IMG/VR virus record: IMGVR_UViG_3300028394_001927
Span: 1-22,758 of that record
Length of the DNA: 22,758 nt
Strand: one strand, 5' to 3'
Origin: a virus
The notes below the pieces were generated by a model, which saw only the letters and a list, made by a program, of their open reading frames with translations, did no database searches and was not told the DNA's origin. Shown here piece by piece: positions 9,507 to 15,298 of the stretch. Position numbers and translations under genes: made by a program. Every line of letters starts with the position of its first letter. The first letter of the stretch is position 1.

Positions 9507-11096
9507 TTAGTCGGCCAGTTTGAGGTATTGGTTTTTGGGCAAGGTGTTCACAGCGATCTCTTTCTGGACTTCTAGCTGGAGGTTGGCGGCCCGGTTCATT
9601 TTCTGCATCTCCTTTGCCTCCGCGCTGAGCGTGTTTTGAATATAGCCACCGCCACCGCCGATCTTTGCCATAGAGCTGGAGATGGTCGAGTAGCCACCTG
9701 ACGACTCTAGTGCCGAGTAGTTGAGCGGCGTCGGCTTGGAGTCGCCAGCAAGCACCTTGGCAAACATCGCCTTACCTTCTGCATCGGCTTGACCTTCCAG
9801 CACCTTGCTTTTTGCTCTCAACGACTCAACGCCTTCATTGCCAGTAATTACGCTGATTGCTTTTGCAAAGTCTTCGCCAGCCTTGCCAAATGCGGCTCCT
9901 CCTTTGGCAATTTGCTCCCCGCCTGCGGCAATGTCTTTCAGCCCACCGCCTGCCTGGATGCTTGGAACATAGGATGCCGATGCAACTCTTTGCTCATACG
10001 TCATGTCTGTTTCACCTTCACCACCTCTTGCGTAAGTGTAGCGACTTCTGGCGGCATAGTAACGAGCCCTATCAGGCGCAACTTCTTTATCAATTTGCTC
10101 TGTAGTGAACCCCTTTTTCTTCAGTAAAGGAATCAAAGCCTCAAGCTCAACTTGAATCTTGTTCATCTCTGCCAATGATGTATTGGCCGTGGTGTTTTGC
10201 TCCGTTCCATGAATTTGACTCATGGAGAACTGCTTTCTTGCCCACACGTGCTGAGTTGTGCCCTCAGTCAACAAATTTGCCGCAGCTTGAGCCCCTTGGA
10301 CAATGTAGCCCTTCAGAATCTTGCCTAACCCAATGAAGATGTCCTGCGCCCCGGCAAACATGTCGACCGCTTTGGGCCCACCAAAGACATCTTTCATGCT
10401 CTTGAATTTCTCAGCCAGATAATTCCACGAGTCGTTGAAGGCCAGCTTCATGCGGATCGCCAGAATCTGAAAGATCGTGCCGTTCTGGATGCCGCCAACA
10501 AGGATCTCGACGCCACTACGGATCGCCGAGCCGAACCTTTTGCCGAAGTCGCTGAGTTGGATAGTGTTGTTGAGCAGGATAATGGCGGCGCGGAGTGGAT
10601 CGACGAACTCCGCTGTCATACTCATGAAGAAGGTTTTTACCTTGCTGGAGATGCTCTGAATCGTATTCCACACCAGCATCAGTTGCTGACTCGACTTGGT
10701 CAGCGCGTCGGCCTGTCCGCCGTAGTCTTTGCTGGCTTGAGCCAGAGCACTACCGGCACCGCCAGCGTTCAGAAATAGCGACGAAAACGGCTTGCCACTA
10801 GCTACCAGCTTATCGATGGCTCCCTGCGCCTCTCCGGCTGCCAGTCCGCTGTTCTCCAACGCTTTCTGCATGAGGAACATCTTGCCCGGATCGATGTGGC
10901 CCATGCGTGCAGATACTCGCCCGATTTCATTGCCGAAGTTGACCGCCTCCTTCACTCCCTCGATGAAGAAATCCGCCACCTTGTAGCTGGCAAAGGCTGC
11001 GCCCAACGCCACAAGTGCGCCTGTTGCCGCCTTGATCGCGGTGTTGAATCCGCTGGCGTCTAGGTCGAGAAATCCGACTGCCTTAGCTCCGGCCAT
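9507..11096 (-). CDS. tape measure protein
   Basis: 529 residues, rich in Ala, Gly, Lys and long helices, directly after the chaperone region. Sets tail length and is ejected with the DNA. An N-terminal hydrophobic segment (ALVALGAAFASYKVADFFIEGV, about 26-47) and others in the middle (FVDPLRAAIILLNNTI, FGSAIRSGVEILVGGI) could insert in the host membrane. Gly-rich stretches (AGGGLKDIAAGGEQIAKGGAAFG) lie in the C-terminal third. At the usual about 0.15 nm per residue the tail would be near 80 nm, short for a siphophage. The leader is G-free for about 17 bases (CCACTCTCTAATTT before ATG). TAA abuts the next ATG (TAAATG). Confidence 0.85.
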   Translation of the reverse strand: MAGAKAVGFLDLDASGFNTAIKAATGALVALGAAFASYKVADFFIEGVKEAVNFGNEIGRVSARMGHIDPGKMFLMQKALENSGLAAGEAQGAIDKLVASGKPFSSLFLNAGGAGSALAQASKDYGGQADALTKSSQQLMLVWNTIQSISSKVKTFFMSMTAEFVDPLRAAIILLNNTIQLSDFGKRFGSAIRSGVEILVGGIQNGTIFQILAIRMKLAFNDSWNYLAEKFKSMKDVFGGPKAVDMFAGAQDIFIGLGKILKGYIVQGAQAAANLLTEGTTQHVWARKQFSMSQIHGTEQNTTANTSLAEMNKIQVELEALIPLLKKKGFTTEQIDKEVAPDRARYYAARSRYTYARGGEGETDMTYEQRVASASYVPSIQAGGGLKDIAAGGEQIAKGGAAFGKAGEDFAKAISVITGNEGVESLRAKSKVLEGQADAEGKAMFAKVLAGDSKPTPLNYSALESSGGYSTISSSMAKIGGGGGYIQNTLSAEAKEMQKMNRAANLQLEVQKEIAVNTLPKNQYLKLAD

Positions 11097-11111: not shown

Positions 11112-11567
11112 TCATGCGTTAAATTCCTTGGCGATTTCGTCCATCATCCTCTGCATCTTGGCAGCAAACTCACCGCGCAACTGATCGGCGGCGATGACTG
11201 ATGGAGAGTATTTTGCGTCCTGTGACTGAGCGTAGCCGATGCTGTCCTGAATCCACAGGCGGATGTGGTTCTTGGGCGCATCAAATTTCCAGAACCGCCA
11301 GCCTCGAGCAAACAGTCCGATAGCCTTGATGCGTCGGGCCAGCTCCTGAGCGGCGGTCTTGGCTTTGCCCCTGCGCTTGATGCGGTTGCCTAGCACCTGA
11401 GCCTCGGCGGTGATGATGGCTGGCGTTGGCATGTGCTCCCGAGCCACTCGGCGCGTGCGATTCACGAAGAATCGTCCGTGCTTTTTCATCATGATCTTGC
11501 CCTTTTTCTTTTGGAGTTTTTCCATCTTCTCCAGAGCTCGATTGATTGCGCTGCCGTCAAATCTCAT
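11112..11567 (-). CDS. hypothetical basic tail protein
   Basis: 151 residues with a very basic N-terminal half (MEKLQKKKGKIMMKKHGRFF, then NRTRRVAREHM and NRIKRRGKAKTAAQ). The C-terminal part is helical (FAAKMQRMMDEIAKEF). It starts within the stop of the GT-like extension (ATGA) and ends 15 bases before the tape measure start. A minor tail or tape-measure-associated role fits the place, and HK97 gp10-like proteins share the basic helical start, but similarity is too weak to claim. Confidence 0.65.
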   Translation of the reverse strand: MRFDGSAINRALEKMEKLQKKKGKIMMKKHGRFFVNRTRRVAREHMPTPAIITAEAQVLGNRIKRRGKAKTAAQELARRIKAIGLFARGWRFWKFDAPKNHIRLWIQDSIGYAQSQDAKYSPSVIAADQLRGEFAAKMQRMMDEIAKEFNA

Positions 11568-12159
11568 AGGTTGTGGAACTCAGGTGGAAAGAATCGGTCG
11601 TCAGTGTGGGCAGGTTTTGTTGCCATATTGTGCATCCGCATTAGGGAATGACAATAGGCGTTGCCACGAGCCACCGGCAACTCCCACAGGATGAAGTGTT
11701 CCGACCATCGAAAGTACCGTGCAATCATCGCAACGTAAGCCGCGCACGGTGACGGCTCGATTAGTTTGGGTCGCTCTCAAAGTCGCCTCCAGTTTCCTTC
11801 ATTGGGTCGGTGTTTGGCACGGCTCGACCACTCTCGCTGTGCGTCAGGATCGATGCGATCAAGGCGGCGGCCTCGTCGGCGTCGTGAATGGTGTACTTGA
11901 CCTGGTTGATCCAGGCGAAGACTGCCGAGTCGAATGTCTCGGGCTTGCGTCGGGCGCGGATCAACTCGCGCTCTGGGCACAGGCATCCGTAGATGAATGT
12001 CGGCAGGTCGATGAACTCCGGATCTGATAGGTTGACCAGTCCCAAGATGCACGCCCGACGAGCGTAGCTAAGTGGCTGGATGGTAATGCCCTTAAACTCA
12101 AATTCCCGAAGGTATTCTTCGTCAAGGTCGAGTGCGGATGTGGATAGTGGTTTGGTCAT
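11564..12159 (-). CDS. tail assembly chaperone, -1 frameshift form (GT-like)
   Basis: Predicted 198-residue fusion: 132 residues in frame 0, then a -1 slip at CCCAAAC (11770-11764) and 66 more residues read from CTA (11764-11762) to a TGA at 11566-11564. The extension is aromatic and Trp-rich (IARYFRWSEHFILWELPVARG) and has no start codon near its beginning, so it can only be made in full by frameshifting. Its stop overlaps the next gene's ATG as ATGA. In lambda, the GT form bridges the tape measure and tube protein and is made in a small, fixed share of translations. The slip heptamer fits the X-XXY-YYZ rule with zero-frame codons CCA and AAC. Confidence 0.82.
11761..12159 (-). CDS. tail assembly chaperone, short form (G-like)
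   Basis: 132 residues, acidic, mainly helical. It lies just ahead of the tape measure region, where siphophages encode the G chaperone that coats the tape measure during tail assembly. The start (EEYLREFEFKGITIQPLSYARRACILGLVN) looks like the compact fold of these proteins. The last sense codons GAC-CCA-AAC form a CCCAAAC slippery heptamer immediately before the TAA stop, and an open -1 frame continues for 66 codons, so this is the unshifted product of a G/GT pair. Its start overlaps the preceding stop as ATGA. Function comes from position plus the frameshift signal, a hallmark of this gene class. Confidence 0.8.
   Translation of the reverse strand: MTKPLSTSALDLDEEYLREFEFKGITIQPLSYARRACILGLVNLSDPEFIDLPTFIYGCLCPERELIRARRKPETFDSAVFAWINQVKYTIHDADEAAALIASILTHSESGRAVPNTDPMKETGGDFESDPN
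11764..11770 (-). promoter_or_regulatory. programmed -1 ribosomal frameshift site
   Basis: CCCAAAC on the minus strand, in the phase C-CCA-AAC, directly followed by the zero-frame stop TAA. Slipping back one base pairs the two tRNAs with CCC and AAA and avoids the stop. The adjacent stop may help the ribosome pause. I see no obvious long stem just downstream. Confidence 0.82.
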
Positions 12160-12569
12160 AGCATGGCTTTCATTCTGGACTTAAGTCGGTTGCTGGCTTT
12201 TTCACCGATTAAGATCGTCTTCTCTCCGTGCTGAATCACTCGCAACGGCTTTACGTTTTTGCGAATCCAGCCGAGGAGCACCTCGCGGTTTTCCAGCACG
12301 CCCTTCATCCAATAGAGCGGATGCTCAGTCGGAAGGCTGAATGACTCCCAGTCTCGGGCCTTTGCGTATGCTGTGACGGCCTCCTGCGCCTTCTCTTGCA
12401 GTCCATCGTCAGTCACATCGAACCAAAAGGAAAACGCCTCGCGTCGGTTGCCGGTGTTGTCCGTCGAGACGATGCAGGTGATCGGCTCGGCTTTGCGAAT
12501 GGGAATGCCTAGAGCGAGCAGGATCGCCGCCAGCTTAATGTCGGTGACAAAGATGTGCTTTTCTTGCAT
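12156..12569 (-). CDS. hypothetical tail-region protein
   Basis: 137 residues, soluble, mixed alpha/beta, with a basic C-terminus (LIGEKASNRLKSRMKAML). I do not recognise a family. It opens with a helix containing LAAILLALGIPIRKAEPI and contains FSFWFDVTDDGLQEKAQEAVTAYAKARDW. It sits between the tube gene and the frameshifted chaperone gene and overlaps the latter by ATGA, so it is probably made along with tail assembly proteins. An accessory chaperone is possible, but nothing in the sequence proves it. Confidence 0.65.
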   Translation of the reverse strand: MQEKHIFVTDIKLAAILLALGIPIRKAEPITCIVSTDNTGNRREAFSFWFDVTDDGLQEKAQEAVTAYAKARDWESFSLPTEHPLYWMKGVLENREVLLGWIRKNVKPLRVIQHGEKTILIGEKASNRLKSRMKAML

Positions 12570-12592: not shown

Positions 12593-12961
12593 TTACGAGG
12601 TAATCAGCGGATACTGAGTGGCATTGATGGATATCTTTTTGAACTCGGTGTTGCCCTTGCTAACATCGACGTCATCAACGACGATCAGCCCTTGAGTGAC
12701 TCCGTTGCTGGTCGCGGTATTGGCTAGGGTCAGAGCCACGCCAGGCGCGGCAGCTCCGAGTCCGCTGGAGCCAGTCAGCACGCCAGCTACGGAGAATGTC
12801 TGGGTTGCGTTATAGAAGGCCACAGCGACAAATTCGCCAGACTCGTTACGGACCTGATTTTTTTCTCGCGTGGTTTTTGCGCTGACGCTTTGCGCGATGA
12901 TTCCGCTTTCGGTAGACAGTCCCCAGATGACTCCGGCAGATCCAATAGTTGTTACGGGCAT
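12593..12961 (-). CDS. probable tail tube protein
   Basis: 122 residues, beta-rich, Gly/Ala/Thr/Val composition. Position between the terminator-like gene and the chaperone pair is that of the major tail protein. The SVSAKTTREKNQVRNESGEFVAVAFYNATQTFSVAGVL segment suggests the extended loop and beta-hairpin shared by tube-forming proteins. It is short for a siphophage tube protein (often 150-250 residues), so it would be a minimal version without an added Ig domain. The G-poor leader (12962-13000) resembles those before capsid and fibre genes, in keeping with high expression. No sequence motif makes this certain. Confidence 0.6.
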   Translation of the reverse strand: MPVTTIGSAGVIWGLSTESGIIAQSVSAKTTREKNQVRNESGEFVAVAFYNATQTFSVAGVLTGSSGLGAAAPGVALTLANTATSNGVTQGLIVVDDVDVSKGNTEFKKISINATQYPLITS

Positions 12962-13466: not shown

Positions 13467-13820
13467 TTAGGCTCCCTTCACTCGAACGATTAGTTCGTTG
13501 CCGTCCGCACTGGTCGTCGTCGAAATGACCAGTTTTTTGCGGTTGATCGGCGTGCCGTTTGGTCCGTTGGGATCGACGTCTTGAATGTAGATCGTTGCGC
13601 CTGGCTCAATCGATGGTAGGTCAGAAATCAGAAAGTGGACACCTTGCCCCATGTTGATCATGGGTCCACCAAAGTCGTCCTGCTCGTCTTCCTGACTGTC
13701 TTCCAGAAGCACCGTGTAGGTGGTCGTAATGCCGTTTTCGATGATGATCGCGGTGCGCTGGATATCGTAGGCAAAGACGCCTGCCAGATCCACTTTCATC
13801 GCGTCGGTTAAAGCACTCAT
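13467..13820 (-). CDS. head-tail joining / neck protein
   Basis: 117-residue protein coupled by ATGA to the glycosyltransferase. Predicted beta-rich with an acidic loop (LLEDSQEDEQDDFGGP, about residues 38-53) and a conserved-looking GATIYIQDVDPNGPNG turn. Size and place, between the head genes and the terminator-like protein, fit a head-tail attachment protein such as lambda gpFII or a stopper of the SPP1 gp16 kind. The N-terminal MSALTDAMKVDLAGVF helix fits those families, where the helix docks on the connector ring. No decisive motif, so the role is inferred from order. Confidence 0.6.
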   Translation of the reverse strand: MSALTDAMKVDLAGVFAYDIQRTAIIIENGITTTYTVLLEDSQEDEQDDFGGPMINMGQGVHFLISDLPSIEPGATIYIQDVDPNGPNGTPINRKKLVISTTTSADGNELIVRVKGA

Positions 13821-15298
13821 GGTGTGAGCGTATTGCCTTCGTTCGGACTGTCAACTGGCGTGGGCGATTCGCCGATGATCAGTGGCGAAAGATCCAGTCC
13901 AAAGTCCTTGATCGGCGTTGGGCTGGTGACGGCTGATAGGTCGATGAGCTTGGCCAGCGCGGCGTCCCACGACTGACCAGGAATGATGCGGGAGTGGGTC
14001 GGGATGATAACCTTGCCTCGGGCCATTGACTCGACTGTGGGATGCTCGGCGGTCGGCTCCACCCAATGCCGGAAGCCACGAAACTTGCCGCGGGAAAAGG
14101 TTGAGCCCTCGGGCACCTTGAAAATGAACTCCACTTTGTCCGCTCGCTGAGCTGTGGTCAGCCACCACTCTCTCGAGCGCAGTCCGAACATTGCGGTGGC
14201 GTCGGCGTCGTCGTAGATGATGGAGAAATTAACACCGTCCTCGCCGTGATAGAGACGCTCAAACTCATCGATGTCTCCACCAGCTAGTCGCAAACATTGC
14301 GCGTAGAGCTCGCTCCCTCGCCAGCTGTACCAGAGGTTGTTTAGGCTCCAGTAATGTCGCTTCGGACGTGGCATGCCGTAAAGCAGAGTGGCGAGCTGTA
14401 ATGCCTTCTCCACGTCATCCTCCACGATGGCGTAGGAGCAGAGCAACGCCAACGCCTCCCGGCGGTCTGGCATGACGGTAAAGGCTTCAGCCGCCAGCAC
14501 TTTGGACAGCGGTCCGTCTTCGGCTTGGGCAAGGTTCAGCAGGATCTCGTATCGCTCCAGCGTGTCGATCTTGGGCGATGCCAGCGCGGCTCGTCCGTAG
14601 GTTTTGGCTAGTGCCATTTCTTGCCCCTCAAACGCCTCCTGGTGAAGGTAGAAGTAGTTTCGGCTACATTGCTCTATCTCTCGTCCAAGGATGCGCCTGT
14701 TGCGCTCCCTGCCTCCGTGCTTGGTGGGCATTGGTCGGTGCAGGAAAGTGGCGGCTGGCAGTTGCCGATAGGTGATATCGTTGGCGAAGGAAAGTTGCTC
14801 GTGGAGCGGATAGATCCACCGAGACTCGACCGACGCCTTGACGAGTCGCTCGCGGATGACCTGCTGTTGCACCACGACCTCGCCCCGCACGTTGTATGGG
14901 CAGAGGTAAATATCCGCGGTGCCTTCGGCGGCGGCTGAGCGCAGAGCTTCGACGGCACCTTCCTCAAGCATATCGTCGCAGTCTGCCCACATAAGGTACT
15001 GAGCACCAGTCGCTCGGGCGGTCGTCCATGACAGCTCTCTTGCTCTGGAGAATGAATCGACGTGGGGCCAGTCTTTAGCCTGGGGATCGTTCTGGTAGGT
15101 AAGGATCTGGTGTGGCAAGTCCAGCTCTCGACAGACGGTGCGGATCACTTCGTCGCTCAGATCTTGTTCCTGCGCTCCGATGGCGATCACAAAGACCGCA
15201 GAGTCTACGGCAGGCCGAAAGGCGCGGATGAATCGCTCGATCACGTCGGCTTCGTTGCCGACGATACAGGCCAGACAAATTAAGGGTGAGTCAGTCAT
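13817..15298 (-). CDS. family 2-like glycosyltransferase with helical repeat region
   Basis: 493 residues. The first 120 form a GT-A type fold: LACIVGNEADVIERFI (residues 9-24) matches the opening strand and helix of family 2 enzymes, and FSRARELSWTTARATGAQYLMWADCDDML gives the nucleotide-sugar-binding DxD as Asp106-Cys107-Asp108. Residues about 215-350 are helical and TPR-like. The last 130 residues are an unrecognised domain (FSIIYDDADATAMFGLRSREWW). The gene sits between capsid and neck genes, where lambda has no such enzyme, behind a terminator, yet its stop overlaps the next start as ATGA. It may glycosylate a virion protein or a host surface glycan; substrate is unknown. Its start region shares 19 bases with the small frame at 1806. 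Confidence 0.82.
   Translation of the reverse strand: MTDSPLICLACIVGNEADVIERFIRAFRPAVDSAVFVIAIGAQEQDLSDEVIRTVCRELDLPHQILTYQNDPQAKDWPHVDSFSRARELSWTTARATGAQYLMWADCDDMLEEGAVEALRSAAAEGTADIYLCPYNVRGEVVVQQQVIRERLVKASVESRWIYPLHEQLSFANDITYRQLPAATFLHRPMPTKHGGRERNRRILGREIEQCSRNYFYLHQEAFEGQEMALAKTYGRAALASPKIDTLERYEILLNLAQAEDGPLSKVLAAEAFTVMPDRREALALLCSYAIVEDDVEKALQLATLLYGMPRPKRHYWSLNNLWYSWRGSELYAQCLRLAGGDIDEFERLYHGEDGVNFSIIYDDADATAMFGLRSREWWLTTAQRADKVEFIFKVPEGSTFSRGKFRGFRHWVEPTAEHPTVESMARGKVIIPTHSRIIPGQSWDAALAKLIDLSAVTSPTPIKDFGLDLSPLIIGESPTPVDSPNEGNTLTP

Follow-up and report, generated by a model that had tools for sequence, protein, structure and literature searches.

A conserved gene pair ahead of the tape measure gene of an uncultured phage is probably expressed by programmed -1 frameshifting as a G/G-T tail-assembly chaperone pair

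The classical tail-assembly chaperone pair made by programmed frameshifting is gpG/gpGT of phage lambda, in which a short gene ahead of the tape measure gene undergoes a -1 shift near its 3' end, at the heptamer GGGAAAG, and thereby acquires a C-terminal extension read in the new frame (PMC5009743). In Burkholderia phage KL1, gp18/gp19 carries GGGAAAC right before the stop codon and is followed by a small intervening gene and the tape measure gene (PMC3483164). Heptamers have also been described in the Caulobacter phages phiCbK (AAAAAAC) and Colossus (GGGAAAC) (PMC3556154), and A AAC as the second codon of the slip site was reported for the archaeal virus HCTV-1 as well. The locus described here shares the anatomy of the lambda pair but has CCCAAAC in place of GGGAAAG, no detectable sequence relation to the lambda proteins, a 151-aa gene between the pair and the tape measure gene, and an extension (T) with higher conservation than the zero-frame part (G). 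The gene layout matches that of KL1, but the T part of KL1 is 122 aa long, and G and T of KL1 show no sequence similarity to the present family (hhalign probability 0.1-0.3%). phiCbK and Colossus likewise have a chaperone pair with A AAC as the second codon in phages of bacteria, but they belong to another phage group, and the cultured-phage collection contained no convincing match to the family.

The analysed stretch of DNA (the window), an IMG/VR virus record of 22.8 kb, has matches to a portal of the lambda family, a terminase of the GpA type and a major head protein. The zero-frame gene G, presumed to be the short tail-assembly chaperone, lies on the minus strand (11764..12159) and encodes 132 aa from ATG 12159 to a TAA stop. 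Its 3' end reads GAC CCA AAC TAA, such that the slippery heptamer C CCA AAC (11764..11770, minus) comprises the final two sense codons in X XXY YYZ phase and the stop codon (11761..11763, minus) follows immediately. The -1-frame extension T (11564..11764, minus) consists of 66 codons and TGA 11566-11564 and contains the motif RWSEHFILWELP; its first codon, CTA, takes the last base of the heptamer. As the -1 frame is open only from TGA 11779-11777, about three codons ahead of the heptamer, the two frames overlap by a few codons. The TGA of T and the start codon of the next gene (ATG 11567) overlap in an ATGA. The phased heptamer, the adjoining TAA and the 66-codon open frame ending in this overlap had all been noticed in a sequence-only reading of the window, and each was borne out. 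Among the 6542 codon pairs in 24 ORFs of the window, 14 (0.2%) carry an in-phase heptamer, and G alone has one within its last ten codons. Given this anatomy and these counts, the observation is exact and a chance origin is unlikely.

We are highly confident, from the sequence features and comparisons described here, that the locus encodes two tail-assembly chaperones produced through programmed -1 frameshifting. The majority of ribosomes would decode C CCA AAC and terminate at TAA, yielding G (132 aa), while a minority would slip one base back onto CCC AAA and continue through CTA ATC GAG for 66 codons to yield G-T (198 aa), probably aided by a downstream hairpin. By analogy with lambda, G would coat the tape measure protein and the few G-T subunits would recruit the major tail protein, both chaperones being absent from the virion. 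In E. coli constructs, A AAC is less prone to shift than A AAG (PMC5009743), so the shift efficiency may be low.

The sequence-only reading had proposed aligning related phages, with loss of the heptamer or stops in the -1 frame counting against it. Relatives were fetched from IMG/VR by the protein sequence of the extension and never by the heptamer; successive searches with the fusion sequence, an alignment of the extension and a third query yielded 8, 17 and 80 loci. At each of the 80 loci, the extension is encoded in the -1 frame relative to an upstream ORF; the junction carries an in-phase X XXY YYZ heptamer, usually CCCAAAC or GGGAAAC, at 79 of them. Both the heptamer and the -1 arrangement persist down to 32-40% identity, and homologues of G were found in L003, L004, L012 and L015 as well as in more distant relatives. 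The heptamer and its frame relation are thus conserved in homologues, and the interpretation as a G/GT-like frameshift gained support. When loci were collapsed at 85% nucleotide identity, leaving out L103, L104 and L112, the 31 clusters comprised 17 with CCCAAAC, 11 with GGGAAAC, and one each with CCCAAAA, GGGAAAG and GGGAAAA; X XXA AAC heptamers thus account for 28 of 31. L112 (2806-3228) is the sole IMG/VR relative with a distant heptamer, A AAA AAG located 72 nt upstream of the conserved T match, which yields a long linker before the conserved T region.

In most loci the zero-frame stop is the very next codon after the heptamer, so termination pausing could take part. This placement would suit a fusion formed by a slip of tRNAs in the E and P sites while the stop codon occupies the A site, instead of classical simultaneous slippage in the P and A sites. 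The E/P-site route would yield the same protein and be indistinguishable by sequence, but the stop lies 1-6 codons further on in L004, L015 and others. Transcriptional slippage is another conceivable route to the fusion; it usually requires a homopolymer longer than that in CCCAAA, which counts against it. Taken together, we consider these other slip routes improbable, and classical P/A-site slippage remains the preferred mechanism.

T matches were also present in 10 of 388 sampled genomes of Verrucomicrobiota, the phylum of the Chthoniobacter MAG. Eight of these ten relatives have the -1 arrangement, one (G236) has an in-frame G-T fusion, and one (G306) has an orphan T; heptamers in the more distant ones include AAAAAAG, AAAAAAC, GGGAAAG and CCCAAAC. 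These matches point to Verrucomicrobiota as the host phylum of the family, an indication at the level of the family and not of the window's own host. In G236, a single 214-residue ORF devoid of a heptamer comprises both a G-like and a T-like part (L119 8387-9028, minus; G236:C21:30386-31027); it is located in a tail module that looks complete and includes a tape-measure-like gene, judged by position and by eye. The N-terminal part of this fusion matches the zero frame of G001 and the C-terminal part its -1 frame, which speaks for one polypeptide encoded across both frames. The fusion is also an exception that bypasses frameshifting. An uninterrupted ORF in one bacterial relative is what would be expected if a single-base sequencing or assembly error had split one G-T gene, but an equivalent break, at a heptamer of the same kind, recurs at 79 loci from metagenomes (31 clusters at 85% identity) as well as in bacterial genomes, which leaves an error hardly credible.

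The T-like domain of G306 (L036 / L120, G306:C26:618-788) has GGGAAAC and no G upstream; it adjoins a host dapB-like gene on the opposite strand and looks like a prophage remnant. Two explanations for the use of A AAC were considered in the bacterial genomes and are not supported. One was that a host tRNA-Lys(CUU) makes A AAG non-slippery: ARAGORN found this tRNA in G025, G070, G150, G217 and G329, of which G217 and G329 have an AAAAAAG junction, and found none in the CCCAAAC genomes G001 and G186. The other was that tRNA-Asn had lost its queuosine; 56 of 59 genomes encode Tgt.

Purifying selection acts on the extension at the protein level. Pairwise dN/dS of T in the -1 frame was 0.04 for L008/L009, 0.09 for L017/L019 and L018/L021, and 0.16-0.34 for other pairs, several of these values resting on near-saturated synonymous sites. 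Sixteen residues of T are invariant across 15 loci. Identity to more distant loci is 35-43% for the extension and 14-23% for the zero-frame part, so the extension is the better conserved of the two. It had been claimed from the sequence that the extension lacks an early start codon; this did not hold to the letter, since codon 13 is an in-frame ATG (11728), but this ATG has no Shine-Dalgarno-like sequence. T might therefore be imagined as a separate gene translated by re-initiation past the G stop, for example from this ATG, with the heptamer being incidental. The same ATG is found in L002, and ATG, GTG or TTG occurs at codons 10-14 in several relatives, but no start codon ahead of the conserved T motif is itself conserved, and L012 has none. 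Moreover, conservation begins at the first codon past the heptamer and thus includes the residues ahead of the ATG, and re-initiation explains neither the conserved heptamer nor the G-T fusion of G236. We regard re-initiation as very improbable compared with frameshifting.

Covarying hairpins in the relatives point to a downstream RNA structure as a putative stimulator of frameshifting. In the window, the predicted hairpin 3' of the heptamer (11716..11750, minus) is formed by 11750-11744 (ACCGTGC) and 11722-11716 (GCACGGT). Across ten sequences of the window's own clade, 100% of the cells are paired, with 5 double-changed cells vs 1.5, and the pair 11749-11717 changes in a compensatory manner among close relatives (C-G, U-A, G-C); support for this hairpin is moderate because it comes from essentially one covarying pair. 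Judged on the window sequence by itself, the fold lacks significance (z -1.1). A second clade (L005, L007-L009, L017-L021 and L027) has a hairpin beginning 7 nt past the heptamer, in which 91% of the cells are paired vs 40-49% when the partner is slid, with 12 double-changed cells vs 3.3 in shuffles and four pair types at the column pair 20-45. The window's clade cannot form this second-clade hairpin; its own predicted hairpin is in a shifted register. A Shine-Dalgarno-like stimulator upstream of the slip site was seen by eye in L015 and is not conserved.

The gene order around the pair fits a tail module. The 529-aa protein encoded at 9507..11096 (minus) was confirmed as the tape measure protein by profile and by alignment to relatives: it is 46% identical over 235 aa to its counterpart in L012 and matches that of L027 with an hhalign probability of 99.7%, and the L027 protein matches PHROG tape-measure families (phrog_9483 at 2.7e-23). 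The G/T pair therefore precedes the tape measure gene with one gene in between. This intervening gene (11112..11567, minus), which overlaps the T stop, encodes a 151-aa tail protein with 37% identity to its counterpart at the equivalent place in L003 and no match in Pfam and PHROG searches. The position ahead of the tape measure noted in the sequence-only reading was thus correct as to order but not as to adjacency. Directly upstream of G, a 137-aa gene (12156..12569, minus) overlaps the G start in an ATGA, and its counterpart occupies the same place in the relatives read. Next comes a 122-aa protein (12593..12961, minus) with no convincing family match, a candidate major tail protein by position only; with this assignment, the pair is placed between the major tail protein and the tape measure. 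Within the head-tail module, the window also encodes a 493-aa glycosyltransferase-2-like protein (13817-15298, minus; recognized by eye from CIVGNEADVIERFIRAF...), and counterparts lie at the equivalent place in L003 (2511-4298), L004 (2292-4031) and L012 (2229-3995).

No convincing match to G or T emerged from Pfam, PHROGs, NCBIfam, PDB sequences or cultured phages, and PDB fold searches gave nothing useful. The AF2 models of G and T had pLDDT values of 78 and 74, respectively; the Foldseek hits comprised a single unnamed phage protein (E 6e-4) and, weakly (E 0.8-5), proteins that bear the name tail assembly chaperone. We infer a chaperone function for the pair on the grounds of its gene order and frame arrangement. 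The family is new at the protein level but falls within a well-known mechanism, because A AAC was already reported for KL1, phiCbK, Colossus and HCTV-1.

These results assign a likely function to a gene pair that has remained unmodelled in many uncultured phage contigs, including a -1-frame ORF of the kind that gene callers tend to drop, and they place a lambda-type device in Verrucomicrobiota-linked phages, few phages of this phylum having been studied. The T motif (GWSEHFILWELP) can be used as a marker of the tail module in such phages, and the natural fusion allows testing whether a ratio of G to G-T is always needed. A broader proposition, which we hold only tentatively and think rather unlikely, is that this is a large chaperone family of Verrucomicrobiota phages and prophages relying almost only on A AAC, with at least one lineage (G236) using a plain fusion. 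If so, the hosts or the hairpins would make tRNA-Asn slip well, and G236 would need some other means of setting the ratio of G to G-T, or would leave it unset.
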